Source: a virus. From it: a stretch of DNA of 56,244 bases. Location of the stretch: positions 1-56,244 of IMG/VR virus record IMGVR_UViG_3300032291_002769, one strand, 5' to 3'. Every line of letters begins with the position of its first letter. The stretch's first letter is position 1. The notes below the pieces were generated by a model. The model searched no databases. It was not told where the DNA came from and worked only from the letters and a program-made list of their open reading frames with translations. Position numbers and translations under genes: made by a program. Below are positions 1 through 18,043 of the stretch, in pieces.

Positions 1-31
1 AAAATCCCACCTATAAAGATAAGATTTAATT

Positions 32-283
32 TTACTTCTCAATGGGTTTGACCATCTTTATATTAACGGTTGGTGTGTCCATCCATTGTCCGTTACACAT
101 TTTTATGGTGCTCATCCCACTTTCGTATGACAATACCTGTGTCGCTTCAATTTGTGATCCATCATTTAATATTACTAATTCATCACAAACTTTATTATTT
201 TGGGATGAGAGATATACAAAATAACCAAATGTTACAGATGTTAATATCATCATTAAAATTATAAGTATACTTTTTCTTATCAT
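32..283 (-). CDS. small signal-anchored protein, unknown function
   Basis: An 83-residue protein. Residues 4-26 form one hydrophobic segment that could be an uncleaved signal anchor or a signal peptide; the rest is a small soluble domain with two cysteines (CDEL near residue 33, MCNG near residue 63) that could form a disulfide outside the cytoplasm. It is the last minus-strand gene before the window edge and lies 13 bases below the homing endonuclease. I do not recognise the family. The ATG start fits the hydrophobic N-terminus. Confidence 0.6.
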   Translation of the reverse strand: MIRKSILIILMMILTSVTFGYFVYLSSQNNKVCDELVILNDGSQIEATQVLSYESGMSTIKMCNGQWMDTPTVNIKMVKPIEK

Positions 284-296
284 ATTATTTATTTTT

Positions 297-1109
297 TTAT
301 TTAGTGTATTTTTGTTTTATTTTTATAAAATTATTATTCTTACGTTTAAGTCCATAATCAAAAAATAATGGCTCTAATTTTAGAATTTCTTTACCATAAA
401 TTTTTAAAACCGAAGATTTATGATTCTTTTTTGAGATACTTTTATAAATATTAAATTTTTTTACTTCTAATTTGTTAATAAAATTTACCAACTCTAAATA
501 TTGATAATCATAGGTTGAGGCAATTTCAAAAAAAGCTCCTCGACCACTTAACCCAATACTCCCGTCACCATCAAAATAACCTTTCCAAAAGTAGATTTTT
601 AATTCATCTGGTATTTTATTTAAAATTAATGTTGGTTCTTTGGATGATTTATATTTATAATCATTACTATATAAAAATTCATACAAATCTTTATTGTTAG
701 TTGTAAATAATGTTACTTCACTATACGTACCTCTTTTTCTTTTTTGTATATTCCAGTCACCAAAACTTAAAAAAATATCACTAACAGTTATAGCATCTGA
801 AGATTTAATTTCTATGGAAACCACATTGTGTGTTATGTTGTTACTAACATAGTTATGTATATACCCATCAGCCCATAAAAACCCTAAAAAATATACAACT
901 TCTTTTTTTGTGATATTATTAAAATTATCAATAGAAACTTTTTGTAATGTTGGATGTGTTTGTTTATTTATAACTTTAATTCCCATTCTAATTGCCATTG
1001 CGTTTATTGCATCTAACTTTCTCCCACCAACAAATGGTTGACAATATTTACTACCGTATTTTGGGTAATTTTCTTTTAAAAATTCAATTTCATCTTCTTT
1101 CCACTTCAT
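297..1109 (-). CDS. LAGLIDADG homing endonuclease
   Basis: A 270-residue protein with the two LAGLIDADG helices of a one-chain homing endonuclease: FLGFLWADGYI near residues 74-84 and FWKGYFDGDGSI near residues 174-185. The acidic residue near the end of each motif is the expected metal-binding catalytic position. The N-terminal 50 residues look like a small helix-turn-helix DNA-binding segment. Such enzymes make one double-strand break at a long target and spread by repair. It is free-standing, not inside an intein or intron that I can see, and lies beside the NAD+ salvage operon. The TATTTATA motif 16 bases upstream suggests its own promoter. Confidence 0.85.
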   Translation of the reverse strand: MKWKEDEIEFLKENYPKYGSKYCQPFVGGRKLDAINAMAIRMGIKVINKQTHPTLQKVSIDNFNNITKKEVVYFLGFLWADGYIHNYVSNNITHNVVSIEIKSSDAITVSDIFLSFGDWNIQKRKRGTYSEVTLFTTNNKDLYEFLYSNDYKYKSSKEPTLILNKIPDELKIYFWKGYFDGDGSIGLSGRGAFFEIASTYDYQYLELVNFINKLEVKKFNIYKSISKKNHKSSVLKIYGKEILKLEPLFFDYGLKRKNNNFIKIKQKYTK

Positions 1110-1125
1110 AATGTTATGTATATAC

Positions 1126-1133
1126 TATAAATA
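1126..1133 (-). promoter_or_regulatory. TATTTATA motif, possible phage promoter
   Basis: The minus strand reads TATTTATA, ending 16 bases before the homing endonuclease ATG. The same motif precedes many genes in this window, but in such AT-rich DNA an 8-mer like this will also occur by chance. Confidence 0.35.
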
Positions 1134-1170
1134 TCACCAACATTACAAAAATCCCTAATATTTAAAAATT

Positions 1171-2631
1171 TTATCTCAATTTATTTCTGATTTCCTTTAA
1201 TGTTGTTTTGTTATAAAACTCACCATCTTGGTAGATTGTTTGGAGTGCTCCAATAGATTCTCCATCCCAAGATTGTTTGTCAAACAAAATAAAATCCCCA
1301 TTACTATTTTTAGTTACGTGTAACAAACCTGTTGCCGATTTCTTTGTTCCATCATCTGTGATTGGGTCCTTGAAGATCTCTCTACCAACTCCATCGACTT
1401 CAACGTAAGTTGCTTTAACGGCACCACCTTGATTATCTCTGGTTGCATATCCCATTGAGTATGAACCAACACCAAGAACCACATTTGTTGACGCAAATCC
1501 CTTTGTTTCCAATCTTTTACAGATTTCATCAGCTCTTTCAATCGTAATAGAATCGCCGTACAAGGCCCCAATGTGTGGATCTAAAACTTTATAACCTTGT
1601 TCGTTTACTGTTCCTCCGAATACACCCCAAAGTAATTCAATTACTCCATGTCTTTCAGGTAATTTATTGCACGCGTCATCCGCCATTCTTTGAGTACCAC
1701 AAAGAATATCCACCGGATCTCCAGAGTCAGGACGAATAACAAGTTTACCGTCACGAGCCATAATCTCATCTTTCAATTCAACAACAAACTTTGTACAAAC
1801 GTCCCACAGATTGAACGAATCTGATACTAAACTTAATATACCGGTTGGATATTGTTTGATTAATCGTCTAAACCCGTCAATTTCATTTTCTTTACCATAT
1901 GCTGTCATAACTGCGTGTTCTGATGCCGGAACTGAAAATGCAACATTTTCATCTCCATAATAATATTTGACAGCTTGTAGTGTTGGTATTGTATCGGTTC
2001 CCGAAAATGATGTTAAAAATCCCATCCCTGAGCTAATTGCCGATTCAGGATGTTGCATACCTCTAAATGAAAAATCGTGTCCTTGGAAATCAACAAAACC
2101 AATGTTTGTTTTATCTGTTTTTTCGGCGTGTTTTACCAATATTTTTTTATACCCATACGCTAATGATGCTGAATGTACTGGTTTCCATATTAAACTTGAA
2201 ATTAATGTCTCCAAGAAATTAGGCAACCAAAAGAAATCCGGATGTGTATTATAGATTGTCAACATTGGTATTTTTTCTGTTATAACAGTTCCTTCTGTTA
2301 AACCTTTCACTTTGATTGGTAAATAACCAAGATCGTGTAATGCTTCAAAATGTGAACAATCATAATCGGTTCCCAAATAGTTACTTAAAAATGTTTTTGC
2401 TTCACCAACAACCTCATCTTTTGGTCTATTAAAAAAGTTTTCTTGGTATAATTCGTGAATGTAAGTCATTACATATTGCAAACCAAAAACAACAATATCT
2501 TTTGCGTTCTCTGGCATTCGTTTAACACTTCTTGGTGTAAAGTTTGAATAAACTAATGTTGTTCCTTCCGGATACATTTTGTGATGTGATGTTTTATAAC
2601 CATCTGTCATCGATAGTGGATTGTTTTTCAT
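1171..2631 (-). CDS. nadV: nicotinamide phosphoribosyltransferase family (NAMPT/NadV; possibly nicotinamide ADP-ribose transferase)
   Basis: A 486-residue protein with full-length NAMPT features: FVDFQGHDFSFRGM at residues 179-192, SFSGTDT near 208-214, the ASEHAVM block with the catalytic-type histidine at 239, and VIRPDSGDPVDIL near 303-315, which binds the phosphoribosyl phosphates. The family joins nicotinamide to PRPP to make NMN. In phages, a homologue (Namat) instead uses ADP-ribose pyrophosphate and makes NAD+ directly. The PRPP-synthetase-like gene three genes upstream in the same operon fits that pairing. The sequence alone does not decide which substrate is used. Start ATG at 2629-2631. 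Confidence 0.95.
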   Translation of the reverse strand: MKNNPLSMTDGYKTSHHKMYPEGTTLVYSNFTPRSVKRMPENAKDIVVFGLQYVMTYIHELYQENFFNRPKDEVVGEAKTFLSNYLGTDYDCSHFEALHDLGYLPIKVKGLTEGTVITEKIPMLTIYNTHPDFFWLPNFLETLISSLIWKPVHSASLAYGYKKILVKHAEKTDKTNIGFVDFQGHDFSFRGMQHPESAISSGMGFLTSFSGTDTIPTLQAVKYYYGDENVAFSVPASEHAVMTAYGKENEIDGFRRLIKQYPTGILSLVSDSFNLWDVCTKFVVELKDEIMARDGKLVIRPDSGDPVDILCGTQRMADDACNKLPERHGVIELLWGVFGGTVNEQGYKVLDPHIGALYGDSITIERADEICKRLETKGFASTNVVLGVGSYSMGYATRDNQGGAVKATYVEVDGVGREIFKDPITDDGTKKSATGLLHVTKNSNGDFILFDKQSWDGESIGALQTIYQDGEFYNKTTLKEIRNKLR

Positions 2632-2664
2632 AATTTTATTTTTTTTATTTTTTTTTATTTTGTT

Positions 2665-3222
2665 TTAATTCCAGTCAATTTTTGGACAATACTTATGGTA
2701 TTTCGCCTTAATAAATTCTATTAAGATATTTGGTTTCGGTTCGTAGGGAACATAATCTGGATTAATCATATAATCATCCAATTCCTCATTCCAAATAAAT
2801 CGTAAATGTTTTTGTTGTTTTTTTTCTTTTCTACGTTTATATAGATATATCGGTAGAGCTATCAAACAACCTATAATTACACCAATCCAAAGTCCAATAC
2901 CAATCATTTGCCACGCATTAAATGTTGTATCCTTTGGAAACCACCCAACAAATAAATAAGTTATTGGAAATATAGCAATGAATATAAAAAACATCAACAA
3001 CCAACTAATAAAACTAACGGTAAGTCTTTCCCTAAAATCAAAATCCCCATAGTGAATCCTTTTAGAAAATATTGTTGGTAAGGTAATAATTCCAACCGGA
3101 ATTAAAAGTATATACATAACAACCAACTTCCAAAAGTATGGACATAAATTTGTTGGCATATCTTCGGTTAAATAAAACCAACGATAAAGGCGTGCACTAA
3201 TGCTGTTTTGATTTAATTTCAT
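2665..3222 (-). CDS. membrane protein with three hydrophobic segments, unknown
   Basis: A 185-residue protein with hydrophobic segments near residues 29-50, 70-92 and 105-127, followed by a basic stretch (YKRRKEKKQQK) and a hydrophilic C-terminal tail of about 50 residues, probably cytoplasmic. I do not recognise the family. It sits between the NAMPT-like and DUF3307 genes with short spacing on both sides, so it is probably co-transcribed with the NAD+ genes, though nothing shows a shared function. Confidence 0.7.
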   Translation of the reverse strand: MKLNQNSISARLYRWFYLTEDMPTNLCPYFWKLVVMYILLIPVGIITLPTIFSKRIHYGDFDFRERLTVSFISWLLMFFIFIAIFPITYLFVGWFPKDTTFNAWQMIGIGLWIGVIIGCLIALPIYLYKRRKEKKQQKHLRFIWNEELDDYMINPDYVPYEPKPNILIEFIKAKYHKYCPKIDWN

Positions 3223-3226
3223 AATT

Positions 3227-3646
3227 TTATTTTGTTAATAGATAATATGTTAAGAATAATTGTGTGTAATGAAGGACCTGATCAAATCCAATAATCGTGA
3301 AGGCCCCAAAGTTTGGGATTGGACTTCCGTAGTGTTGGTCTGCAAACCTTTTACTAACAATTTTACTTGTAAAGTAATCGGTGATTGTGTGGAAAACAAA
3401 AGTAATCACAGGAAATAACAACATCCATCCTGACCACCCCAAATCTTTGGCCGAGTATCCACCAAAATGATTCCCACATATCGCAAATACAAACATCACA
3501 AAATACCAAACCAATGAATATGTGATCGTATGTTTAAGTAGAGGTGTTATACCCTTACTTTTATTGTTTGCCCATTCCTCGGCTTGGAAAATAAAATCGG
3601 CAACCCAATGGATAAAGATGATTGATAATACTACTATAAGTGACAT
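3227..3646 (-). CDS. DUF3307 family membrane protein
   Basis: A 139-residue membrane protein. The N-terminus has HWVADFIFQ (residues 13-21), the signature of DUF3307, and a second histidine-rich part, HTITDYFTSKI, near residue 86. Three to four hydrophobic helices are visible. DUF3307 proteins occur in bacteria and phages; their function is not established. The gene ends 4 bases before the next gene's start and begins 1 base after the stop of the PRPP-synthetase-like gene, so it is tightly coupled in the operon. Confidence 0.75.
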   Translation of the reverse strand: MSLIVVLSIIFIHWVADFIFQAEEWANNKSKGITPLLKHTITYSLVWYFVMFVFAICGNHFGGYSAKDLGWSGWMLLFPVITFVFHTITDYFTSKIVSKRFADQHYGSPIPNFGAFTIIGFDQVLHYTQLFLTYYLLTK

Positions 3647-3647
3647 T

Positions 3648-4565
3648 TTAAAATACGTTTAATTGTTTAACAAATGAGTGAATTGTCTTGTGTCTTGAGA
3701 GCATATCTACAATTACCCCGTCCTGAATATCTTTTACACTATTAGTGCAAAATATACCGTCAAGATATTGTACTAAAAAGTCAAATCCTGAACTGAATAT
3801 ACCGTGAGTAACTACGAGATAGATTTTAGCATTTGGTTTTTGGTTTTTAATAGCTGTGGCAAGTTCAATAAACGTACGACCACCATCACATATGTCGTCA
3901 ACGATAACATACTTCATTTCATCACTATGATCTTCAATTGACGGAACTTCGGTTCTTAAAATCTTTCCGGTGTTTACATCTCTAACTTTACTGGCCGTAA
4001 TAATTTTGTTTATTTTAAAAAAGGTTGCAACATCAAATACTTTTTTATAAGCTCCGGCATCTGGTGAAACTAAACAGATACGTTCCTGTGCATCGTTCTT
4101 ATTATCAATTTCAGGTAGTGCCATTCTTAATAATTGGAAATTTGAATACTTCACAAAATTATTAATACATGCTTCCAAAACATCACTGTGAGGGTCCATA
4201 ATTCTAACCTCATCAAAATTTTGTGAATTAATAATTGGTGCAATTACCGTCTTGACATAATTAAGACCACCTTCCTGGAATTTTCTATCACTTCTTCCAC
4301 CAATACAGTATGGTATGTAAAGTTTAACAGACTTAACCCCAATTTCTTTTAATGCTTGGTTTGCACAGATTATAAGTTCAAGGTCTTGGAATGTGTTTAA
4401 TCTTGATTTTATTATAATTGGTGTTTTTTGTTCTGCTAAACTATAATAGGTGTCATAGTTATATTCCACAATCCTAATTGATTGCTGTCCGTCCGGAAAT
4501 CTACTTATCTCATAACTACAAGATAACACATCATCCGGATTTACTAAATTTAATGTTTCTACCAT
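3648..4565 (-). CDS. prs: ribose-phosphate pyrophosphokinase family (Prs; possibly ADP-ribose pyrophosphate synthetase)
   Basis: A 305-residue protein with two phosphoribosyltransferase-type halves. Visible motifs: RFPDGQQSIRI (residues 22-32), IPYCIGGRSDRKFQEGG (84-100), PHSDVLEA (125-132), and the PRPP-binding loop YVIVDDICDGGRTF (219-232). Prs makes PRPP from ribose 5-phosphate and ATP. The usual DLHAGQ region is replaced by DPHSDVLEA and the nucleotide-binding loop is divergent, as expected if the acceptor differs from ribose 5-phosphate. In the described NARP1 pathway a Prs homologue (Adps) makes ADP-ribose pyrophosphate for a NAMPT homologue. Both partners occur here in one operon, so that role is plausible; ordinary PRPP supply for NMN synthesis is the alternative. 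Confidence 0.92.
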   Translation of the reverse strand: MVETLNLVNPDDVLSCSYEISRFPDGQQSIRIVEYNYDTYYSLAEQKTPIIIKSRLNTFQDLELIICANQALKEIGVKSVKLYIPYCIGGRSDRKFQEGGLNYVKTVIAPIINSQNFDEVRIMDPHSDVLEACINNFVKYSNFQLLRMALPEIDNKNDAQERICLVSPDAGAYKKVFDVATFFKINKIITASKVRDVNTGKILRTEVPSIEDHSDEMKYVIVDDICDGGRTFIELATAIKNQKPNAKIYLVVTHGIFSSGFDFLVQYLDGIFCTNSVKDIQDGVIVDMLSRHKTIHSFVKQLNVF

Positions 4566-4576
4566 TTTACTTTTTT

Positions 4577-5242
4577 TTATTTATTCAAATTTTTATATTC
4601 TTCCAATAACTTAATTTCTTGTACCCTAAAAAGTAATCTCAATACTCTGTGATCACAAAAAAAATTTTTACATCCAGTGACCGACATTTGGTATTTAACT
4701 TTACCAAAAATTTCTTCGTCTCTAAATTTTTTGGTTACAGCCTTTTTTAATTGTTTTTTATATTTACGTGGTGTTCGTTTATATGAATCATCAAAAAATC
4801 TTGGTGGATTTGGATCTTTATGTTTAAATCGTTTGTGTTTCTTACAATACCATTTACCTTTGTAATCTTGACTGTGTGCCGTTGGTATTTTACATTTACA
4901 ACATTTTGTCAATGGTTCAAATACGGTTGAAGAATACGAACAATGTTTACAATACGCATACCCATCAGTTCGATCTCTACGTTCCATTTCGTGATCACAA
5001 GTCATAACTTTTTGGTACTTTTCCCAACATTGATTTTCAGCTTCCTCAATGGTACTTCCTTCTCCCCTTAAAAAACAACTGGGATTCTTTGGGAAAGCCT
5101 CAAAGAATGCTGTTGTGTAACTATTTTCTGTTGATTTGGAATTAAGTACGATACCACTATCACCACATTGGACAAAAATTTCATCTAACCAAGGTTGTTT
5201 ACAAATATAGGGGTTGTTAGAGGAATTTCTAGCCGTTTTCAT
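4577..5242 (-). CDS. zinc-ribbon phage protein, unknown function
   Basis: A 221-residue protein. The N-terminal 80 residues are a compact domain (WLDEIFVQ, SYTTAFFEAFP). A cysteine-rich middle follows: CDHEME, YCKHC, CCKCK, YCKKHKR (about residues 82-140), which looks like two treble-clef or ribbon zinc sites. The C-terminus is strongly basic and ends in a helical segment. Basic plus zinc-binding suggests nucleic-acid binding, but I cannot name a function. It is the first gene of the NAD+ operon, with a clear Bacteroidota-type promoter just upstream (5255-5285). Confidence 0.7.
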   Translation of the reverse strand: MKTARNSSNNPYICKQPWLDEIFVQCGDSGIVLNSKSTENSYTTAFFEAFPKNPSCFLRGEGSTIEEAENQCWEKYQKVMTCDHEMERRDRTDGYAYCKHCSYSSTVFEPLTKCCKCKIPTAHSQDYKGKWYCKKHKRFKHKDPNPPRFFDDSYKRTPRKYKKQLKKAVTKKFRDEEIFGKVKYQMSVTGCKNFFCDHRVLRLLFRVQEIKLLEEYKNLNK

Positions 5243-5254
5243 TTCTTTTTTTTA

Positions 5255-5285
5255 CAAAGTTAATCATTATTTTTTAATAGGTCAA
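5255..5285 (-). promoter_or_regulatory. Bacteroidota-type promoter for the 4577-5242 operon
   Basis: On the minus strand TAACTTTG (5262-5255) is preceded by TTG (5285-5283) with a 20-base spacer, matching the Bacteroidota consensus TTG-N19/20-TAnnTTTG. The ATG of the downstream gene begins 12 bases after the -7 box. The -33 TTG sits at the tail of the upstream terminator, so insulation and promoter are packed together. Confidence 0.8.
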
Positions 5286-5287
5286 AC

Positions 5288-5317
5288 AAAAAACCCCAAC
5301 TTTTTGTGTTGAGGTTT
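5288..5317 (-). terminator. rho-independent terminator after the SPFH gene
   Basis: Stem AAACCTCAAC / GTTGGGGTTT (5317-5308 with 5300-5291, one G-U pair), loop of 7, then a run of T on the minus strand. It lies 27 bases after the stop of the SPFH gene. Confidence 0.85.
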
Positions 5318-5343
5318 TATTATTTCTTGTTGTTTGAAAATTA

Positions 5344-6291
5344 TTATTTAATGTTCAAAAATGTTCCGGATCCACCTGCAACTGTTGAAGGTAACACCCC
5401 ATTCCAACTTTGGGCTTTCAAATACTCAACATAAAGTGGTGTAATTTCTTTTTGTTTTAATTTCATTGCCAAGGCCAAGGCTTGTGCGTCAATTATAACT
5501 TTTGCCGAATCACCACGAGCGATTGCGATTTTTTCTTGAGCTTCAGCTTCCGCAACTAACTTACGTTGTGTCGCCGCCTGTGCCTCCTGAACCGCCTTTG
5601 TTTTACCTTCAATTGCCTTTTGAAGAGACTCTGGCGGTGTGATATTAGTTCTTAACTGTGATACTTCAAACCATTTAGATAATCTTTTATTACACTCAGC
5701 AACAATAGCGGCCTCAAATTCTTCTCTTTTATTAAAGATTGCATCCACTTCCCACTTGTTAGCCACGTCATTTACTGAAGAGACAATTGCGTTCATTAAC
5801 CATCCTTGTTCAATTTGTTTTATATCTAAACGTAAGTTCTCAAACATATTACCAATTGCCGTTGGTTTTAATGAATAGTTAAAACTTGGTTTAATTGTTG
5901 CTGCAAATCCACCTTTTGTAATCACGGTCTGATCTTTATATTCAATATGTTGTTGGAATGTAGGAAACTCTAACATCTGTTCTGTCCAAGTGTTGTATAA
6001 TACCCACCCCGTTTTATATTCATAACTTGACACGCCTCTTTTGTCACCGGTTAAATTAACTTTAATCCCAACGTGTCCTGCATCTACTCTATCTAATGCG
6101 AATGGTTGGATACTAGAGATTATAATACCTAAGACAAAAATACCAATTGGTTTTAGTATCCACATTGTGTTAAACATCTCTTTACTATCACCCCATCTGT
6201 CTGTTCCTGTTACATACATTCGGTCTCTTGTTGTAAATGCAATAAATCCTGCAATTACCAATCCTAAAATAAAAATTAAAGTACTAATCAT
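5344..6291 (-). CDS. SPFH/band 7 (prohibitin-like) membrane protein
   Basis: A 315-residue protein with an N-terminal hydrophobic segment (residues 3-19), a second one near 45-60, then the SPFH domain (DAGHVGIKVNL near 70-80; RTNITPPESLQKAIEGK near 215) and the typical Ala/Glu/Gln-rich coiled coil (about 228-275, AVQEAQAATQRKLVAEAEAQ). SPFH proteins form large membrane-bound rings; prohibitin/HflKC types restrain membrane proteases. In phages a role in guarding the host membrane or excluding other phages is possible but unproven. Its start overlaps the stop of the upstream small membrane gene by 8 bases, and a terminator follows. Confidence 0.9.
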   Translation of the reverse strand: MISTLIFILGLVIAGFIAFTTRDRMYVTGTDRWGDSKEMFNTMWILKPIGIFVLGIIISSIQPFALDRVDAGHVGIKVNLTGDKRGVSSYEYKTGWVLYNTWTEQMLEFPTFQQHIEYKDQTVITKGGFAATIKPSFNYSLKPTAIGNMFENLRLDIKQIEQGWLMNAIVSSVNDVANKWEVDAIFNKREEFEAAIVAECNKRLSKWFEVSQLRTNITPPESLQKAIEGKTKAVQEAQAATQRKLVAEAEAQEKIAIARGDSAKVIIDAQALALAMKLKQKEITPLYVEYLKAQSWNGVLPSTVAGGSGTFLNIK

Positions 6292-6490
6292 TTTTTTCTT
6301 CTTTTTTGTTAAATAATTTTATTGTTTCATTTATTACATACATAAGGACCCCAACCAACCCAACGAAACTTAACAGTTGGAGGAACCCGTTTACTTCTCT
6401 ACTGACGATGTATTCGCCAAACATTGTTCCGATTGCGATAAAACCTAACCAGATCAGAAACACTTTAAAAAACTTCATTTCATTTTTCAT
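6284..6490 (-). CDS. small membrane protein, two helices
   Basis: A 68-residue protein with two hydrophobic segments (about residues 7-26 and 35-57) and a short charged tail (KKEEKND). It overlaps the start of the SPFH gene by 8 bases, so the two are translated together and this peptide may be an SPFH partner. The family is not recognised. Confidence 0.65.
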   Translation of the reverse strand: MKNEMKFFKVFLIWLGFIAIGTMFGEYIVSREVNGFLQLLSFVGLVGVLMYVINETIKLFNKKEEKND

Positions 6491-6495
6491 AATTT

Positions 6496-6879
6496 TTAAT
6501 CGTTAATAAAAACACATTTGTCAAACTCATAAACTTGTCCCGATCTTGATGATATTACAACTAATTCAATATTATAACCAATAATGTTTAATTTTTCTGA
6601 TTTAAAGTTTTTACCTATTCCTATCACTTTTAAATCAAATGGTGGGTCAAATACTATCCCTTGTCTATATGATATTCTTTTAACTGTGTCAGTCCAGGTT
6701 GATAATCCGTATTTTCCATTATACCTAAACTTTCTACCAACAAATCTTGGAATATCAAAACTTTCATCTTCAACATCTGTTGATAATGGGTTTTTCTCAC
6801 CGGTTAATTCTTCATAATACGGATTAAGTTCTCCGGTGTATGGGTCGTGTGTTGGTATATTATTTGCCGAATTTTCCAT
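6496..6879 (-). CDS. hypothetical protein, 127 residues
   Basis: A soluble 127-residue protein. The N-terminal 45 residues look disordered (Asn/Pro/Glu-rich, HDPYTGELNPYYEELTGEKN). The C-terminal 80 residues read as an all-beta domain (FRYNGKYGLSTW, GIVFDPPFDLKVIGIG, IGYNIELVVISS), possibly an SH3-like barrel. It overlaps the next upstream gene by 20 bases. No family recognised. Confidence 0.6.
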   Translation of the reverse strand: MENSANNIPTHDPYTGELNPYYEELTGEKNPLSTDVEDESFDIPRFVGRKFRYNGKYGLSTWTDTVKRISYRQGIVFDPPFDLKVIGIGKNFKSEKLNIIGYNIELVVISSRSGQVYEFDKCVFIND

Positions 6880-7054
6880 TAAATAATGCTTTCATTTGGT
6901 TCATTAGTTGAACTTGTCTTGTTTCCAATTCTTTAACTTTTTTCTTTTCTTCCTCATTTAGTTCAAAACTATTCGCTTTAATATCTGCTATCTCATTTTG
7001 AACTCTTCTATGTTCATTTAACATAGATTCATAAATCATTCTCTTATCGTTCAT
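6860..7054 (-). CDS. small coiled-coil protein
   Basis: A 64-residue, almost wholly helical, charged protein (EEEKKKVKELETRQVQLMNQM) expected to form a coiled coil. It overlaps both neighbours by 11-20 bases, in a run of co-translated small genes. Function unknown. Confidence 0.6.
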   Translation of the reverse strand: MNDKRMIYESMLNEHRRVQNEIADIKANSFELNEEEKKKVKELETRQVQLMNQMKALFNGKFGK

Positions 7055-7301
7055 TTTTTACTATTGCTTTTGTAAGTTGGTTTATCAGTCCTTGAACCTC
7101 TCCAAATTCGTGGAATCTTACAATTGGATCCGTATTAAAAACATCAACATACCAATTGTCTTCCTTTATTTCTTCATTGACTGGTGTAATAAAAGTTAAA
7201 CCATCAACGATATCAAGTACATAGTAATAAGACTCATCATCATCGTGTTCTCTGATTTCTTCACTTTTAAAACCTAAAAGTATTAATTCTCTTTCTGTCA
7301 T
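7044..7301 (-). CDS. hypothetical acidic protein, 85 residues
   Basis: An 85-residue acidic protein with alternating strands (YYYVLDIVDGLTFITPVN) and a C-terminal helix. ATG start; its end overlaps the start of the coiled-coil gene by 11 bases. No family recognised. Confidence 0.6.
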   Translation of the reverse strand: MTERELILLGFKSEEIREHDDDESYYYVLDIVDGLTFITPVNEEIKEDNWYVDVFNTDPIVRFHEFGEVQGLINQLTKAIVKNER

Positions 7302-7302
7302 A

Positions 7303-7566
7303 TTACTTTGTTTCTATAATGTTATAAGTTCCTTCAACTAATCCCCAAGATGACTCTTCTTGAAATTGATATGTCTGTGCCACATCGTTTGAATCCATTG
7401 GTCTTGTTAAATACCAAACTTGGGTTTCTTTCCAAGTTACATTAACTAACTTACGACCTTTTGGTAGGTTAATTGTTCCTTCTCCACCCCAGGCTTTAAC
7501 TCTTTCATTTTCCGTACAGGATGTTACCATAACACCCATCATAATCGCTAAAAATACTTTTTTCAT
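7303..7566 (-). CDS. predicted lipoprotein
   Basis: An 87-residue protein with a lipoprotein signal: MKK, a hydrophobic core to residue 14, then the lipobox VTSC with the lipid-modified cysteine at about residue 17. The mature part is only about 70 residues, beta-rich (KLVNVTWKETQVWYLTRPMD). It would be anchored in the host inner or outer membrane. Its start overlaps the stop of another predicted lipoprotein by 4 bases. Phage lipoproteins often block superinfection, which is a guess here. Confidence 0.75.
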   Translation of the reverse strand: MKKVFLAIMMGVMVTSCTENERVKAWGGEGTINLPKGRKLVNVTWKETQVWYLTRPMDSNDVAQTYQFQEESSWGLVEGTYNIIETK

Positions 7567-7811
7567 TTTATTAATTTTACTTTTTTTACTTCACCGTTTT
7601 TATCTGTTTTATATTTTATTCTTGCCGTGTCAACAATAATCCTATAATCATCATCCAAATCCAAACAAACCCAGTCACAAGTTTCGTGGTAATATAAATG
7701 GACGTGAATCTTTTCATTTTTTTTACACCTTAAATATGTAAATTCTTTATATTGCCAGTTAGAACAACTAACTAATAACATAATCAAAAATATACAGATA
7801 ATATTTTTCAT
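7563..7811 (-). CDS. predicted lipoprotein
   Basis: An 82-residue protein beginning at the ATG at 7811; an upstream TTG in frame is a less likely start. Signal peptide MKNIICIFLIMLLVSC with a lipobox LVSC and mature N-terminus CSNWQYKEF. Mature part about 67 residues with a further two cysteines (CDWVC) that could form a disulfide in the periplasm. Second of two adjacent lipoprotein genes. Confidence 0.75.
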   Translation of the reverse strand: MKNIICIFLIMLLVSCSNWQYKEFTYLRCKKNEKIHVHLYYHETCDWVCLDLDDDYRIIVDTARIKYKTDKNGEVKKVKLIK

Positions 7812-7813
7812 AA

Positions 7814-8074
7814 TCAAATTTCTCTTGAGGTTAATTCTTTAAGTGCTTCGTCAACAATCTTCATATATTTTTCTTGTTTTTTTTTATGGTAAAGATATAA
7901 TAAAAAACAAATTGGATATACAATTAAAAAGCTAACAACAAAATTAAAAATTAATAATATAGATTGTATTAATCCAATAATTACTAACACCATAGATGAA
8001 TAAAAATGTTTATCAGCAATTGCGAGGTTTTTGTATGCTAAGGATAGTAATTCACTATCAGTTAAATTCTTCAT
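7814..8074 (-). CDS. small membrane protein, two helices
   Basis: An 86-residue protein with a short helical N-terminus and two hydrophobic segments (about residues 25-45 and 48-65) separated by a very short turn, then a basic segment (YHKKKQEKYMK). The hairpin shape resembles small phage membrane proteins including some holins, but nothing places it in a lysis cassette. It lies next to the two lipoprotein genes. Confidence 0.6.
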   Translation of the reverse strand: MKNLTDSELLSLAYKNLAIADKHFYSSMVLVIIGLIQSILLIFNFVVSFLIVYPICFLLYLYHKKKQEKYMKIVDEALKELTSREI

Positions 8075-8313
8075 TCTAATTCTTTTGATTTAACACTTTG
8101 GTGTTTGTTATAAAATCTCATTAATGTTGTTACCAGTTCAGGTATGTTATCAAATGCCCATCTTTCAGTTTCAATAACATAAAAATCACCACCACCACCA
8201 TTTTCTGTTTTGATTGTTAAATATTGACCGTCACTAGAATCACAACAATCGGGATCTTGTGTAAATGTCATTTTAAATTGTTGTGACAACAAATATGTTT
8301 TTCTATCTTCCAT
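8071..8313 (-). CDS. hypothetical protein, 80 residues
   Basis: Read from the ATG at 8313 (MEDRKTYLL); an upstream in-frame TTG would add six residues but is less likely. A small soluble domain with a CCDSSDGQ segment and a GGGG turn. It overlaps the start of the next gene by 4 bases. A TATTTATT motif lies 19 bases upstream of the ATG. Function unknown. Confidence 0.6.
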   Translation of the reverse strand: MEDRKTYLLSQQFKMTFTQDPDCCDSSDGQYLTIKTENGGGGDFYVIETERWAFDNIPELVTTLMRFYNKHQSVKSKELE

Positions 8314-8332
8314 TTGTTTTATTTTCAACAAA

Positions 8333-8340
8333 AATAAATA
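8333..8340 (-). promoter_or_regulatory. TATTTATT motif, possible phage promoter
   Basis: Minus-strand TATTTATT, 19 bases before the ATG at 8313, in the first non-coding gap upstream of the small-gene run 5344-8313. Low-complexity surroundings make this uncertain. Confidence 0.3.
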
Positions 8341-8351
8341 TTTTTTTTTAA

Positions 8352-8573
8352 TTACACAAGTGTTATAATAATTTTTCCTGGATTTAAAAAATCTTCTTGG
8401 TATGTCATATTGTAATCATCAACACATTCTTTGACAACAATTTTCATTTGATTACTAATGCCGGTAATTATTGAAACTTCTTTTTGTTTCTTTTGCATAT
8501 TTTCCCAAATAAATTGGTCCAATATTTTTTTAACTTCGGAATGTTTAATCCCGTGAAGATCCAACTGTTTCAT
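8352..8573 (-). CDS. stand-alone Smr domain protein
   Basis: A 73-residue protein read from the ATG at 8573. It starts with LDLHG (residues 4-8), the hallmark of Smr domains, followed by the amphipathic helix HSEVKKILDQFIWENM, a strand VSIITGIS in place of the usual HGxGxG loop, and a final strand KIIITLV. Smr domains are nicking or endoribonuclease folds found in MutS2 and in RNA-quality-control proteins. The loop GISNQM departs from the usual HGKG pattern, so catalytic activity is uncertain. Confidence 0.7.
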   Translation of the reverse strand: MKQLDLHGIKHSEVKKILDQFIWENMQKKQKEVSIITGISNQMKIVVKECVDDYNMTYQEDFLNPGKIIITLV

Positions 8574-8748
8574 AAACAACTATTTGATTTGTGAATATAT
8601 TTACATCCACATTGTGTTTACCAAGGTTATAAGTTGTGTAAGTCCCATCTAAATTATTAATTCTTAACATAAGAAAACCTAAATCAGAAACATAAATCTT
8701 TTCAACTTCACCAACACCTTTTGGTGTTAAAACTTTAACATTATTCAT
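8545..8748 (-). CDS. small beta-rich protein, 67 residues
   Basis: A 67-residue protein with an SH3-like look (VLTPKGVGEVEKIYVSDL, LMLRINNLDGTYTTYNLG). It overlaps the Smr gene start by 29 bases, so translation of the two is probably coupled. Function unknown. Confidence 0.6.
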   Translation of the reverse strand: MNNVKVLTPKGVGEVEKIYVSDLGFLMLRINNLDGTYTTYNLGKHNVDVNIFTNQIVVYETVGSSRD

Positions 8749-8849
8749 CTTTTTTACCCTTTTTATAATTAATATATAATTGTGCAGTTACCGCAACAAT
8801 AACTAAAATTATTACAATAAAATCTAAAATTGTCTCTAAATTGTTCATT
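8741..8849 (-). pseudogene. small membrane-protein reading frame broken by one base
   Basis: From the ATG at 8849 the frame reads MNNLETILDF and then hits a run of five T (around 8819-8824). Shifting by one base after this run opens a frame coding a hydrophobic helix (IVIILVIVAVTAQLYIN), a basic tail (YKKGKKDE) and a stop overlapping the next gene's ATG as GAATAATG, exactly like its neighbours. As written the frame ends after 26 residues. Either one T is extra (sequence error or mutation) or a +1 shift occurs. Confidence 0.4.
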
Positions 8850-8850
8850 T

Positions 8851-9156
8851 TTAAATAGTATAAGTTATTACGCCATTTTCTTCAACAACCTCTAAAACAC
8901 CATCACCCTCTAATAAATTATCAATCTGGTTTTGAGTTAGATTTACTTTATCCGGACCCATAAAAATTTTGAATGGTTGTGTTAGAGTTAGTTTTGAATC
9001 GGTTATTAGATTTATAATTTGTTCATTAGCACACTCAACAATACTTGGGTATTTACCTCCAACTGTAACAATTGCTTTATCCCCAACTTCAATTTTTTCA
9101 AGTGATACAAGGTATGGTTGTTCATCAACCATAAATAATTTAACTTTCTTTGTCAT
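8851..9156 (-). CDS. hypothetical protein, 101 residues
   Basis: A 101-residue protein with a beta-rich first half (KVKLFMVDEQPYLVSLEKIEV, DKAIVTVGG) and a C-terminal helix plus strand. It overlaps the next upstream gene by 17 bases. Family not recognised; similar small proteins are common in large phages. Confidence 0.6.
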   Translation of the reverse strand: MTKKVKLFMVDEQPYLVSLEKIEVGDKAIVTVGGKYPSIVECANEQIINLITDSKLTLTQPFKIFMGPDKVNLTQNQIDNLLEGDGVLEVVEENGVITYTI

Positions 9157-9460
9157 TTTCTTTCTTTATATATACATATTTATGGTTGTAATTTCCACAC
9201 TGATCACAGGAATTTCCTTCGTCAGATTCATCAACTTTATATTTGTATTCACCGGACAATTGGATAACAATTTCAGCAATTGTGGTCCAATCATTCATTC
9301 CCATACCACCTTTTAATTCGTGTAGTTTTGAAATCAACTTATCCTGTAAATGTTCAATTAACTTTGGGTCTCTATTATCGTACTCGTGAATAAATAATGA
9401 TTCACCGTCAATTTCAACGTCTGGACCAAAACAATTTTCACTTAATACAATTTTTTTCAT
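9140..9460 (-). CDS. hypothetical protein with C-terminal CxxC
   Basis: A 106-residue protein. The first part is strand-rich and acidic (VEIDGESLFIHEYDN), then a helix, and the C-terminus carries CDQCGNYNHK, a half zinc site or redox pair. It overlaps both neighbours by 4-17 bases. Function unknown. Confidence 0.6.
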   Translation of the reverse strand: MKKIVLSENCFGPDVEIDGESLFIHEYDNRDPKLIEHLQDKLISKLHELKGGMGMNDWTTIAEIVIQLSGEYKYKVDESDEGNSCDQCGNYNHKYVYIKKENDKES

Positions 9461-9771
9461 AACCTTAAATCGTTTTTAGCGTTCATAGTTATAATATAAT
9501 CCATTAAATTTTTAACTAAAGAATCGGCATCAACTTTTTCATATAGTTCTGGATATCTATCTTGAAGTAATTTATTTTCTTCATATTCCCTACAACTTGT
9601 AAGTATATCGGATAACATAGATTTTAGCATATGTTCCTTATTATAGTTGTCTTCAATTTTTTTTTCAAAGATTTCACCTTCAAGGTCCTGGATATATGTA
9701 ACAAGTTCTTTAACCTCCGGGTTGTCAAGAAGTCCTGGATTTCTACGAAATAATTTATTTATGCTTATCAT
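9457..9771 (-). CDS. helical hypothetical protein, 104 residues
   Basis: Read from ATG at 9771 (MISINKLFRR); a TTG three codons earlier is also open. All-helical, with acidic coiled-coil-like segments (EVKELVTYIQDLEGEIFEKK). Overlaps the downstream gene's start by 4 bases. Function unknown. Confidence 0.6.
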   Translation of the reverse strand: MISINKLFRRNPGLLDNPEVKELVTYIQDLEGEIFEKKIEDNYNKEHMLKSMLSDILTSCREYEENKLLQDRYPELYEKVDADSLVKNLMDYIITMNAKNDLRL

Positions 9772-9844
9772 AAGTCCCAAATAGTTTTTCTTTTGTTTTT
9801 TGGTAATCTATATGACAACCAAAATAATATTTTTTTAAAAAGTC

Positions 9845-10390
9845 TCAAATCAAAAATTTTATAATTTTTTCTTTAATTCCTGATTGTTTGATACCTTCAA
9901 GATTAGGTCGTTTACAGTGAACAAAGTTTTCAAGTCCCCAACCATCTCGTTTTGACATATCAAGATCATCAACAGCAACCCAATGTGTTACTTCAGGATG
10001 TTCTTTTAACCAATGTAAAATTTCAATATGTCGTTCATACTCTGTTTTATTAAAATGTGGTAAAACAAAATCATCTGGCAATTTACCTTCACGAAATAGA
10101 ACACTACAAAATGGTGTTATATCAATTGGTGGTTTAATTCCACGAGTAATAAACATTTCTTTTATTTGATTTAATGTTCCGTGTTTTTTCCAATCAGATG
10201 AAATAACTAATTCACAACCGGTTTCTTCTATGATTTTATTTAAAACTTTAACCGCTTTCTCATTAAAGTTATCCATTCGTATATCCATAGGTGTTTCGGG
10301 ATTTGAGTCAAACCCTTTTTTCTTATATCGCCCACCCCACTCTGAAGAAAGACAAATAACCCCGTCGTGATCTAAAAACATTACCTTCAT
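9845..10390 (-). CDS. HAD-family phosphatase of the RNA-repair-associated type
   Basis: A 181-residue HAD-fold protein: motif I FLDHDGV (residues 5-11; nucleophile D7, acid/base D9), motif II in LVISSDWKK, and motif IV in WVAVDDLDM with paired aspartates. The LVISSDW context and small size match the HAD domain reported in multi-domain RNA-repair proteins. It probably removes a phosphate from a nucleic-acid end or small molecule. It has its own host-like promoter 5 bases before its ATG and stands near other RNA-repair-type genes. The substrate cannot be read from the sequence. Confidence 0.75.
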   Translation of the reverse strand: MKVMFLDHDGVICLSSEWGGRYKKKGFDSNPETPMDIRMDNFNEKAVKVLNKIIEETGCELVISSDWKKHGTLNQIKEMFITRGIKPPIDITPFCSVLFREGKLPDDFVLPHFNKTEYERHIEILHWLKEHPEVTHWVAVDDLDMSKRDGWGLENFVHCKRPNLEGIKQSGIKEKIIKFLI

Positions 10391-10395
10391 AATAA

Positions 10396-10425
10396 CAAAG
10401 ATAGTAAAATAAAATTAAATTCCAA
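10396..10425 (-). promoter_or_regulatory. Bacteroidota-type promoter, HAD gene
   Basis: Minus strand: TTG (10425-10423), 19-base spacer, TATCTTTG (10403-10396), then ATG after 5 bases. The spacing implies a leaderless or near-leaderless mRNA. The -33 element lies inside the 3' end of the upstream coding sequence. Confidence 0.85.
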
Positions 10426-10708
10426 TTAAATCATCACCAACAATCTCATATTTTTTTTTAAGCCATTCATTAACAAAATCATAAGTTTCATTATAGTCTG
10501 TTTGGAATATTTTTAATATTGGGTCAATTACAACTTTTGAATTGACATACGCTAAATTATGTTTTTCTTCATATAAAAAATATTTAGTACCACCTTCGGT
10601 TTTGGATAAGATTACATAGTTATTATTTTTATGATAGTCGTGTTTAATTAAATCACCCATATGGTGTTCAAGAAATTTTTCTACACCAAACTTTTGTTTA
10701 TCGGTCAT
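10415..10708 (-). CDS. hypothetical protein, 97 residues
   Basis: Read from the ATG at 10708 (MTDKQKFGVEKF), which overlaps the stop of a small membrane gene; a longer frame upstream exists but would run through that gene. An alpha/beta protein (YVILSKTEGGTKYFLYEEKH; NEWLKKKYEIVGDDLIGI). Family not recognised. Its 3' end carries the -33 element of the HAD gene promoter. Confidence 0.6.
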   Translation of the reverse strand: MTDKQKFGVEKFLEHHMGDLIKHDYHKNNNYVILSKTEGGTKYFLYEEKHNLAYVNSKVVIDPILKIFQTDYNETYDFVNEWLKKKYEIVGDDLIGI

Positions 10709-10817
10709 CTTTTTTAAAAAACATATCAAAGGGATGTTTAATGTTAGCTCTTTTTTTTGTTTTACCAAAAAAACCAATAACAATCATTATAATTAAAAAT
10801 ACTGTAAGAAATAACAT
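10698..10817 (-). CDS. small single-helix membrane protein, 39 residues
   Basis: ATG at 10817, stop at 10698-10700. It encodes a strongly hydrophobic N-terminal segment (MLFLTVFLIIMIVIGFF) followed by a basic tail (KTKKR ... FFKKDDR). The stop overlaps the next gene's start by 11 bases, the arrangement typical of this region. The predicted topology is one membrane helix with the tail in the cytoplasm. Function unknown. Confidence 0.6.
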   Translation of the reverse strand: MLFLTVFLIIMIVIGFFGKTKKRANIKHPFDMFFKKDDR

Positions 10818-10847
10818 ATTGTAAATATATAAAAATTTTTAAAATAA

Positions 10848-10880
10848 AAAAACCCCAAACTAAATTAGAATGGGGTTTTT
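10848..10880 (-). terminator. rho-independent terminator after the fibre-like gene
   Basis: Perfect 10-bp stem AAAAACCCCA / TGGGGTTTTT (10848-10857 with 10871-10880), loop of 13, with T-runs on both strands, so it could work in both directions. It follows the stop of the 750-residue repeat protein by 18 bases. Confidence 0.85.
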
Positions 10881-10897
10881 ATTTTATTTTTTAATTG

Positions 10898-13150
10898 TTA
10901 TGGAACAATAAATAATCCATTTGTTGCTGGATCTCTCCAAACTGAACCAGTTGGTAAACCAGCTGAACTTGTTGGTATATTCATAATTGAAAGATTATTT
11001 ACAAACGTAGCACACTGTCTATTAGAGGTTATATCAGAACCAACTATAAATGAAAGACAATCATTAACAGAATTGTTTTTACCACCTAAAATACCAGATT
11101 TTGATCTTGTAATTTTATTACATTCACCACCAGAAATAACTGAATAACCACCATAAACAGTATTTTGGAACCCAGCACCAATTAAATTAAAAGCACCATT
11201 TAAAGTTGTATTACAATAACCACCAACAATAACATCAGCACTATTTGTTGTATTAAATATACCAGCACCAATGAACGCAAAGGCACCTCCTTGATTAGTT
11301 GTATTGTATATACCACTACCAATAATACTATTGTCGGATCTATTTAAATTACTTGAGCCACCTACTATTGCCGCACCACAACCGATTGCAGTGTTTGAAC
11401 ACCCACCAATAACAGAAGAATGAGGACCACTAAGATAGTTAAGTTCACCACCTAAAATTGATGCAAAATTACCAAGTTCAACAAGATTATTTCTTCCATC
11501 AACAATTGATGAATAACAACCAGAAACCGTATTACATAGACCAGCACCAATAAAGGATCTTGTTTTTGTTATTAAATTACATTCCCCAGCACCAATAAAA
11601 CTTTGACTGGCGGTAGAACCAGATATCTTATTATTATACCCGCTACCAACAAAACCATAATCTGCGGATAATATTTGGTTTTGCCAACCACCAGTAATGA
11701 CAGAATAATTAGCAATTGCAAAATTAAATTGTCCATTACCAACAAATGAGTGTAGTGAGTTTGCGGTATTACGATACCCACCAACCACTGTTGAGTAGCA
11801 CCCACTTGCTGTGTTTTGTCTTCCACCATTTATTGCTGAAGCTTGACCTACCGCTGTGTTACATAGCCCACCATTTACTGTTGAATGAGTATTAGATGCT
11901 GAATTACGACATCCACCGGCTACAGTAGAAAAGTTAGCACCATTTGCTCTGTTGCAAACACCACCACCAACAGTATTTCCGAATTGTGTGGCTTGGTTGC
12001 AATATCCACCACTCACTGTTGACCATTGCCCATCTGCAGAGTTGTTAAGCCCACATCTTAGAGTTGATCCTGTGCCGTTACCAACAATGATAATACCAGA
12101 CCCACCAGTTGCCCCAGTAAAAAATCCGGATGCGGTAACTATTGACCCATTACTATTGTTTAAACTTAAAACTCCAGTTCCAGAATTGTATGAGGCACCA
12201 GTTAATAATACATCTGTAAATCCAGTTAAAAAACCAGACACATTAAATGTATTTCCAGAATTTGTTGTGAATGTTGCAACACCGGTATTAGAATTATATG
12301 TTCCACCAGTAACTGTCATATCGGATGATAAAATTCCTAAATTAACCGTATAATCATTACCATCACTAACAGATGCTGTTAAATCAAAATTTCCAGGATT
12401 CCAAGTAAGACCTGTTAAATAATAGTCAGTTCCACCAGTGTATAAGCCATTTATTGTAACTGTCCCATCTTGTCTTTCCAAAGTAATAGTGCCATTAGAG
12501 TATGTACCACCAGTTACATAAAAATCATCTGTTTGGAAACCAGAAGCATTTAATGTATTACCATTAGAATTTGTTAATGTTAATACTCCAGTTCCGTTAT
12601 TGTATGTTAATCCAGAAACAAAAATATCTGTTGTTGTAACACCGGTTACAACAAATCCAGATGAATCTAAACCAAGGTTTATTACTGGACTTCCGTTTCC
12701 AACATTTCTAATGTTAAGGTTTGGAACATATGCCGTATCTGAAGCTGTTGCTGTAATGTTTCTTCCAGCTAAGATAGAAGAATAAGAACCAGTTACTTTA
12801 TTATTACAACCACCTAATATGGAACTAAAAATACCACTAACTGTGTTGTTATTTCCTCCATTTATAACACCATAATCACCTGTTGATAGTATTTTATTAA
12901 ATCTACCACCACCGATAATTGTTGCATATCCATCGGTTGTATTTGCATTACCACCGCCGATTGTGGAATAAGAAGTTAATCCACTTGTGATTGTATTTTT
13001 ATATCCGCCACTAACTGTTGTGTATGTGTTTCTAACTACATTACCTCTACCACCACTAACTGTAGCGTAGTTTGCTGGTGCTGTGTTACAGTTTCCACAT
13101 CTAACTGTTGAAGTTGGAAATCCAGGATTATCGATAATTACAAAAGCCAT
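10898..13150 (-). CDS. fibre-like protein of about 15-residue S-x-I-x-G-G-x-x-N repeats
   Basis: A 750-residue protein with four parts. Residues 16-137 and 362-712 are tandem 14-18-residue repeats with consensus S-x-I/V-x-G-G-x-x-N-T/K-A/V-x-G, about 7 and 22 copies, resembling the trimeric beta-roll of YadA-type adhesin heads. Residues 168-345 hold another repeat (V-T-G-G-T-Y-N-x-G-T-G-V-x-x-x-x, about 5 copies). The last 25 residues (AGLPTGSVWRDP) look like the C-terminal cap common in phage fibre and baseplate proteins. It is probably a surface-exposed virion fibre for host or polysaccharide binding. Many repeats carry Cys next to the conserved Asn (GGCRN, GGLCN, GGECN). It is flanked by terminators, so it is a single-gene unit with a TATTTATA motif upstream. 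Confidence 0.75.
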   Translation of the reverse strand: MAFVIIDNPGFPTSTVRCGNCNTAPANYATVSGGRGNVVRNTYTTVSGGYKNTITSGLTSYSTIGGGNANTTDGYATIIGGGRFNKILSTGDYGVINGGNNNTVSGIFSSILGGCNNKVTGSYSSILAGRNITATASDTAYVPNLNIRNVGNGSPVINLGLDSSGFVVTGVTTTDIFVSGLTYNNGTGVLTLTNSNGNTLNASGFQTDDFYVTGGTYSNGTITLERQDGTVTINGLYTGGTDYYLTGLTWNPGNFDLTASVSDGNDYTVNLGILSSDMTVTGGTYNSNTGVATFTTNSGNTFNVSGFLTGFTDVLLTGASYNSGTGVLSLNNSNGSIVTASGFFTGATGGSGIIIVGNGTGSTLRCGLNNSADGQWSTVSGGYCNQATQFGNTVGGGVCNRANGANFSTVAGGCRNSASNTHSTVNGGLCNTAVGQASAINGGRQNTASGCYSTVVGGYRNTANSLHSFVGNGQFNFAIANYSVITGGWQNQILSADYGFVGSGYNNKISGSTASQSFIGAGECNLITKTRSFIGAGLCNTVSGCYSSIVDGRNNLVELGNFASILGGELNYLSGPHSSVIGGCSNTAIGCGAAIVGGSSNLNRSDNSIIGSGIYNTTNQGGAFAFIGAGIFNTTNSADVIVGGYCNTTLNGAFNLIGAGFQNTVYGGYSVISGGECNKITRSKSGILGGKNNSVNDCLSFIVGSDITSNRQCATFVNNLSIMNIPTSSAGLPTGSVWRDPATNGLFIVP
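11015..12067 (-). repeat. protein-coding tandem repeat block, about 22 copies of 45 bases
   Basis: Codes for residues 362-712 of the fibre-like protein. Typical units: STVAGGCRNSASNTH, STVNGGLCNTAVGQA, STVVGGYRNTANSLH, SVISGGECNKITRSK. DNA copies are diverged rather than identical, so this is an old expansion under selection for protein shape. Confidence 0.8.
12740..13105 (-). repeat. N-terminal copy of the repeat block, about 7 units
   Basis: Codes for residues 16-137 of the fibre-like protein, with units such as SSILGGCNNKVTGSY and STIGGGNANTTDGY. It has the same consensus as the larger C-terminal block but is separated from it by about 230 residues of a different repeat. Confidence 0.75.
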
Positions 13151-13188
13151 TTTTAATTGTTTTTTTTTTGATTTATTATTTACTTTTA

Positions 13189-13196
13189 TATAAATA
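13189..13196 (-). promoter_or_regulatory. TATTTATA motif upstream of the fibre-like gene
   Basis: The minus strand reads GTATTTATATAAAAG about 38 bases before the fibre ATG, matching the motif placed before other probable virion genes. Terminators flank the gene on both sides, so a promoter must lie in this gap. Confidence 0.5.
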
Positions 13197-13220
13197 CATT
13201 AAAACAAAATAAAAACAAAA

Positions 13221-13252
13221 AAACCCCAAAACTTTTTATGGTCTTGGGGTTC
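13221..13252 (-). terminator. rho-independent terminator
   Basis: Minus-strand hairpin AACCCCAA / TTGGGGTT (13251-13244 with 13229-13222), followed by a long T-run. It would end transcripts coming from the gene at 13414-13860. Confidence 0.8.
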
Positions 13253-13413
13253 AAAGGTAATAGTAATATAATTTTCAGTGTTTTTTAAGAGTTTTAAATT
13301 TTGACAAAATGATTTTTGAACATTTGACTTTTGAATGTTAAGAGCATCATCAAATCTACAATCGTGATCAAGAATTTTGTATTATGTTGAAAATATATAC
13401 TATACTACCTTTA
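13253..13413. other. 161-base intergenic stretch, no gene seen
   Basis: AT-rich and without a convincing reading frame on either strand. A TACCTTTG box (plus 13252-13259) is present on the minus strand but lacks a TTG at 19-20 bases upstream. It probably holds only the 3' untranslated end of the 13414-13860 gene. Confidence 0.5.
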
Positions 13414-13860
13414 TTACAATCCTTCGATTTCTGTTGTAATATTATGATAATCCAACTCCTCTTGTAACTCTTCGATTCTATTTTCTAAAAACTTAATCTC
13501 ATTGTCTCTCTCTACTGTTGAGATTTCAGCGATTTTAACAATTGGTGTATCACTTCTTCTTGATAAATAATCAATAGCAACACCACTTGTACAATCCAAA
13601 AATTTTAATTTATTAACTGCTGATTTCAACTCAGATAAAAGAAAAATTTTATCATAAACTGGTGCGTTTGCTTTATGAATTTGAGTTTTAATTGCTGTTA
13701 ACTCATCAATTCTTACATACATTTCTGCTAACAATTCTTTTGCCGAATAATCTCTTGTGTTACCCTCAATAACTGAATTGTTATTATGTAACTTTTCTGT
13801 AAGTTTATTCAAATCTTGAACCAACTTATTTTTTAATTTTAATGCTTGCTTTACTGTCAT
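13414..13860 (-). CDS. DIP1984-like helical protein
   Basis: A 148-residue all-helical protein resembling the DIP1984 family (members sometimes labelled septicolysin): an N-terminal helix with LKLKNKLVQDLNKLTEKLHNN, the NNSVIEGNT turn, ELLAEMYVRIDELTAIKTQIHKAN, and a later ERDNEIKFLENRIEELQEEL coiled coil. Length matches the family. Biochemical role not established. It ends at a terminator. Confidence 0.6.
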   Translation of the reverse strand: MTVKQALKLKNKLVQDLNKLTEKLHNNNSVIEGNTRDYSAKELLAEMYVRIDELTAIKTQIHKANAPVYDKIFLLSELKSAVNKLKFLDCTSGVAIDYLSRRSDTPIVKIAEISTVERDNEIKFLENRIEELQEELDYHNITTEIEGL

Positions 13861-13899
13861 AATTATTTGTTTTGTGCTGAAATTATAATTTATTTATTT

Positions 13900-14241
13900 T
13901 TAATAGTCAATGTTTTCTGTTAAACAAATTTCAGTTTCCGCTAACTCACTATAAACCCAAATGTCCCAACCTAACCCGCCGGTTGATTTAAACTTATATT
14001 CAAAGTTACCATACTTACCATAAACACCTTTAATATGTCCCATCCAATTATTTAACACTTCAACTTCATTTGGTTGAATTGTAAATGTCATAGGTTTTAA
14101 TGTTTCACTAACTTCTGTTTTTTCTTGGTATTTTTTTGCAACTTCTTCACTTGTGAAATATGATAAATTCACAACTCTTTCTTTCATTTTTGAAAGCCTT
14201 TCATTTTCTTTTTCAATAATTCGTTCTTCAAATTTGCTCAT
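13900..14241 (-). CDS. hypothetical protein, 113 residues
   Basis: The N-terminal 50 residues are charged and helical (EERIIEKENERLSKMKERV). The C-terminal half is beta-rich with aromatic residues (FEYKFKSTGGLGWDIWVYS). Not recognised. It is followed by the DIP1984-like gene after 39 bases and preceded by the zinc-ribbon gene after 8. Confidence 0.55.
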   Translation of the reverse strand: MSKFEERIIEKENERLSKMKERVVNLSYFTSEEVAKKYQEKTEVSETLKPMTFTIQPNEVEVLNNWMGHIKGVYGKYGNFEYKFKSTGGLGWDIWVYSELAETEICLTENIDY

Positions 14242-14249
14242 AATGTTTT

Positions 14250-15210: not shown

Positions 15211-15214
15211 AATT

Positions 15215-17500: not shown

Positions 17501-17527
17501 TTTATTTATTTTATACAATTTGTAATC

Positions 17528-18030: not shown

Positions 18031-18043
18031 TTTTTTCTTTTTA

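Follow-up and report, generated by a model that had tools for sequence, protein, structure and literature searches.

The DNA analysed here, referred to throughout as the window, is an IMG/VR viral record of 56,244 bases with about 30% G+C. Near its left end lies an accessory block of about 5.05 kb (approximately 292-5341, delimited by its junctions in relatives), whose elements follow one another along the minus strand. An intrinsic-terminator-like hairpin after the band-7 gene (5290-5318; an 11-pair stem with a T tail) is followed by a promoter-like site (5255-5286), by ORF221 (4577-5242; 221 residues), and by a gene for a Prs-fold protein of 305 residues that we predict to be an Adps-type ADP-ribose pyrophosphate synthetase (3648-4565). 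Next come two membrane protein genes, one with a DUF3307 match (3227-3646; Pfam, 1.7e-5, plus hydrophobic stretches) and one, Mem2, matching phrog_944 (2665-3222; 6.7e-21, about three hydrophobic stretches). They precede a gene for a predicted Namat-type nicotinamide ADP-ribose transferase of 486 residues (1171-2631). The distal end of the block is occupied by a LAGLIDADG homing-endonuclease-like gene (297-1109; LAGLIDADG_3 in Pfam, 1.4e-6; phrog_4645 endonuclease, 2e-16).

A sequence-only reading of this DNA had placed a NAMPT-family and a Prs-family gene in one operon, and the layout bears this out. The four ORFs from adps through DUF3307 and Mem2 to namat all lie on the minus strand, and since the gaps between them are only 1, 4 and 33 nt, the arrangement suggests a single transcription unit. 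ORF221, co-directional and 11 nt upstream of adps, is its first gene. It has no match in Pfam or PHROGs, occurs outside the window only in two related contigs, and is precisely absent from a third, L004. The site in front of it matches the Bacteroidota-type pattern TTTG-N20-TAACTTTG; as the whole window holds 12 such sites against 7.6 expected, a weak enrichment, we regard it as suggestive. The start codons of the operon are preceded by A-rich leaders and no Shine-Dalgarno sequence.

By family membership alone, the two enzymes could be read as ordinary NAD+ salvage, in which Prs makes PRPP, NAMPT or NadV makes NMN, and an NMN adenylyltransferase of the host completes NAD+. These are the names assigned by public annotations, by Pfam (NAPRTase, 8.5e-38, and NAMPT_N, 2e-9, for the Namat-type protein; Pribosyltran, 8.6e-8, for the Adps-type protein) and by PHROGs (nicotinamide phosphoribosyl transferase, 9.6e-182, and ribose-phosphate pyrophosphokinase, 9.5e-63). 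The matches of both ORFs are far beyond chance. The nearest characterised protein to the NAMPT-family member is, however, the Namat of the Bacillus phage SPbetaL1 (49.6% identity over 98% of the query, with a range of 48-50%; phmmer match to PDB 9w5x, E 1.5e-144), for which structures and NAD+ synthesis dependent on ADP-ribose pyrophosphate (ADPR-PP) have been published (PMC12774641). All catalytic positions are kept in the alignment: F187, S188, R190, D213, H239, R300, D302, G359 and D360.

What separates Namat from NadV and Nampt, which have the same NAPRTase fold and catalytic core, is an adenine clamp. The SCH clamp helix of the window protein reads GSYSMGYATRD, with the adenine-contacting aromatics Y391 and Y395 at positions 3 and 7 of the motif GSX.X.X.TRD; compared with the usual consensus, position 5 is Met where an aromatic is usual and position 6 is Gly where Gln or Asn is usual. 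The SCL stacking position of Namat proteins holds Arg, or else Lys or Tyr with a stacking residue after it. Where SPbetaL1 Namat has Arg40, the window protein has K37 followed by R38, and with a lysine here it is the following residue that does the stacking (PMC12774641). Seven NadV-type controls, three of them adjoining an NMN adenylyltransferase-type gene, carry GGG or GGA at the helix equivalent to SCH (for example GGGLLQ) and lack the aromatic pair. The window protein thus has the clamp and not the NadV-type helix, which speaks against salvage.

Trees of Namat and of Adps/Prs, both quick searches without bootstrap, point the same way. The split between Namat and NadV has an SH-aLRT of 100, with the window protein on the Namat side, and cellular Prs proteins form one clade (SH-aLRT 98-100) outside which the window Adps falls. 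Clustering with ordinary Prs and NadV, the outcome that would have told against the initial reading, did not occur. The predicted structure of the window Namat (pLDDT 89.6) has Namat 9w5x as its best structural match (TM 0.93), followed by NadV of Haemophilus ducreyi (HdNadV; TM 0.91) and human NAMPT (TM 0.84-0.85).

HdNadV (L119:3828-5315; PDB 9ke8) is the exception among the NadV and Nampt proteins, which otherwise form a clade separate from Namat: it groups inside the Namat clade and has been used as a PRPP-dependent Nampt (PMC6095924). A clade member can therefore be a true Nampt, the substrate cannot be told from the clade by itself, and the use of ADPR-PP is argued here from the clamp. 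In HdNadV the corresponding stretch reads GAQTYQRN and lacks the clamp aromatics, as though the protein had gone back to using PRPP. The plasmid that bears this gene also carries one annotated as a major capsid protein.

The Adps-type protein keeps the catalytic set of Prs (R91, D93, R94, P168, D169, K193, R195, D223, D224) and departs from cellular Prs in its loops. The altered loops that had first drawn attention, DPHSDVLEA and GGRSDRKF, are both present and both differ from the cellular enzymes. Where cellular Prs has the segment DLHAxQIQGFF, the window protein has DPHSDVLEACI, and at the ribose-5-phosphate loop it reads DDICDGGRTF instead of DDMIDTGGT. A replacement of the PHSDV type is common to the proven Adps enzymes (EPHSDV in SPbetaL1, DPHSDV in the Vibrio phage ICP1), and the altered loops may be what admits ADP-ribose; there is as yet no Adps structure in which to place the PHSDV loop (PMC12774641). 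The window Adps resembles the proven enzymes only modestly: it is 28% identical to that of SPbetaL1 and, taken as a whole, 33% identical to that of ICP1, a figure that rises to about 41% across the central 218 residues. The model shows a Prs fold (pLDDT 79.3; TM about 0.7 to Prs structures), and TIGR01251, the model for Prs itself, scores the protein at 86.3 bits, below its cut-off of 113 bits.

These features make ordinary salvage improbable, even granting that Namat also turns PRPP into NMN in vitro, about half as fast as human Nampt does (PMC12774641). No NMN adenylyltransferase was found among the window proteins scanned, which included part of the small ORFs of what is itself a fragment. 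We consider it very probable that the operon is instead NARP1, an Adps/Namat pair that rebuilds NAD+. The observations behind this assignment are gene identity, motifs, clade, fold, conserved pairing, and the block's presence or absence at a single site in the genome; by every feature that can be tested in sequence, the predicted operon fits. The pairing is seen in 90 of the 104 loci with the Namat motif: these have Adps nearby, mostly within about 1 kb, in the same orientation. Among the other 14, the sequence mostly breaks off just upstream.

In the proposed pathway, Adps would use ATP to pyrophosphorylate the distal ribose of ADP-ribose at 1'', giving ADPR-PP, which Namat would condense directly with nicotinamide to NAD+. 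Because the substrates are the very products that TIR, SIR2 and SEFIR defence effectors release, ADP-ribose and nicotinamide, a phage with NARP1 would be able to reverse NAD+ depletion during infection. By analogy with the characterised systems, the window pair would be specific for ADP-ribose and would act against such defences. Might the pathway have decayed here, or been repurposed, with one protein inactive or acting on another nucleoside diphosphate sugar? The SMGYA variant of the clamp helix, common to a subclade, and the divergent GGRSDRKF loop would agree with this. Yet both ORFs are intact with every catalytic position conserved, and SMGYA is found again in more than 10 contigs, some quite divergent, that still have an Adps partner, so that we hold such a loss or change of function to be very improbable.

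Homology to the known systems supports the NARP1 reading. SPbetaL1 NARP1 (PDB 9w5w, 9w5x) encodes both families on a single strand and in the order seen here, and its Namat shares the catalytic residues and the clamp logic. It differs in lacking the two membrane genes that the window has between adps and namat, in its clamp helix (GSFTYQYNTRD against GSYSMGYATRD), and in the Adps loops SRMDRSED and SFGGTF, where the window has GRSDRKF and DGGRTF. The NrsAB pair of ICP1 (ORF228/229) likewise combines both families, the DPHSDV loop and the clamp motif, but comes from a different phage and host and has no membrane genes in between. In vivo it overcomes the Nezha system (SIR2-HerA) by regenerating NAD+, and it costs fitness when Nezha is absent (PMC11559045). 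Phage NadV proteins encoded beside an NMN adenylyltransferase, by contrast, lack the adenine clamp.

Bacterial NARP1 has been reported already (PMC12774641). The 80 best cellular relatives of the window Namat, the closest found, are all from Bacteroidota (54-58% identity), and all carry the clamp as GS(F/Y)TYQ(Y/F)(N/K)TRD. An Adps-type gene lies near about 54 of these 80, downstream where offsets are listed. Unlike in the window, namat mostly comes before adps in these chromosomal loci, and their Adps mostly has HPHSxx together with DDLADGGRTF. The pair lies on long contigs (L264-L343) of many marine Bacteroidota, among them Maribacter, Aquimarina, Tenacibaculum and Polaribacter. NARP1 is known in kind, and what is new here is the slightly variant clamp and the setting of an accessory cassette; with the window, an anti-defence pathway proven elsewhere is now seen, in a distinct form of the Namat clamp, in a phage that probably infects Bacteroidota.

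This setting can be read from relatives that have no block. In five related contigs (L344, L346, L347, L352 and L353), with band-7 gene identities of up to 98%, the band-7 gene is joined directly to the next gene (83 residues): window positions of about 2-297 abut base 5342, which shows that the stretch from about 292 to 5341 is absent there. In the window, the 9-bp TAAATAATA is found at both edges of the block. Among the band-7 contigs examined, 12 have NARP1 genes and 41 others, each with at least 2.5 kb downstream, have none. Presence or absence at one site fits a trait with costs and benefits, in line with the cost of ICP1 NrsAB without Nezha (PMC11559045). The LAGLIDADG gene at the block end suggests that homing may have assisted its spread. 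HNH endonuclease genes lie between or overlap adps and namat in the Felix-like phage Si3 and in Rhodococcus phage Weasels2 (L036:4118-4609, H62), a parallel to the LAGLIDADG gene beside namat in the window. In L004, the Adps protein is 95% identical to that of the window, whereas Namat is only 63% identical and ORF221 is missing; this mosaic points to recombination inside the block.

The initial reading had also pointed to the two membrane proteins between the enzymes and to a Nudix enzyme elsewhere. Both membrane genes are there, one of them with DUF3307, but a consistent link to the pathway did not emerge. Only some DUF3307 relatives adjoin NARP1 genes, chiefly those of the closest clade. 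The remoter relatives of Mem2 that a scan picked up lie away from NARP1, the exceptions being two contigs (L013 and L014) that carry a Mem2 relative together with it. Given this patchy association, we rejected the membrane genes as conserved parts of the pathway and read them as probably optional passengers. The Nudix gene exists as well (26449-26868, minus strand); it lies some 22 kb from the operon, no evidence connects the two, and its hinted role in the pathway was dropped. A HAD protein (14782-15234) was considered as a partner since its homologues separate namat from adps in crAss-like phages and others, and was rejected when only 1 of 34 close relatives proved to have NARP1 genes within 8 kb.

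Among related phages, different genes fill the slot that separates adps from namat. One recurrent occupant, present at nine loci (L016, L017, L055, L056, L058, L060, L067, L097 and L108), is a macrodomain-like gene with a weak Pfam Macro match and PDB matches to ADP-ribose 1''-phosphate phosphatase. Another recurrent occupant and frequent NARP1 neighbour, at eleven loci (L005, L007, L017, L055, L060, L063, L067, L071, L083, L097 and L108), encodes a nucleoside 2-deoxyribosyltransferase-like protein (Nuc_deoxyri_tr2, 2.2e-33). When scans were seeded with these proteins, NARP1 genes lay within 6 kb of 15 of the 27 macrodomain-like loci and 36 of the 45 Nuc_deoxyri_tr2 loci; the HAD protein, used as a seed for comparison, gave the 1 in 34 mentioned above. 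Part of this association may simply reflect synteny within the lineage. Neither gene was found in the window, and a search of the literature collection used here for NARP1 together with a macrodomain gave no paper.

An extra gene inside the operon is also a feature of the DyoEdafos system, where RyDEP, a cADPR hydrolase, makes ADP-ribose that feeds Adps (PMC13232231); the extra genes of the window encode membrane proteins instead. Because RyDEP supplies ADP-ribose in that operon, it is a fair hypothesis that the macrodomain-like and Nuc_deoxyri_tr2 proteins could be ADP-ribose suppliers too, and the recurrent genes inside the operons of relatives are candidates for which feeding can be tested. 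A broader proposal is that NARP1 is here a modular cassette of large aquatic phages whose inner slot extends the pathway, in relatives through ADP-ribose release by macrodomain- and nucleoside-deoxyribosyltransferase-like proteins and in this phage through the DUF3307/phrog_944 pair, which would act with NARP1 and not be a passenger; we think this rather unlikely.

As to the virus itself, a nucleotide search with window bases 1-20000 gave no near match among known or sequenced phages, and no tRNA genes were found in the 56,244 bases. The window is probably a fragment of a larger genome, and since relatives of its genes sit on contigs of up to 319 kb, a large phage is likely. The promoter-like site, the A-rich leaders lacking Shine-Dalgarno sequences, and the all-Bacteroidota cellular relatives of Namat lead us to infer, with moderate confidence, a host from Bacteroidota. 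The window also holds a tandem overlapping pair of C-5 cytosine methylase genes (45392-47126), genes of RNA-repair type for HAD_SAK_2 (9845-10390) and RNA ligase (18071-19204), and a phage-borne DnaJ gene (36207-37142) whose product is complete, comprising the J domain, the zinc centre and the C-terminal domain.
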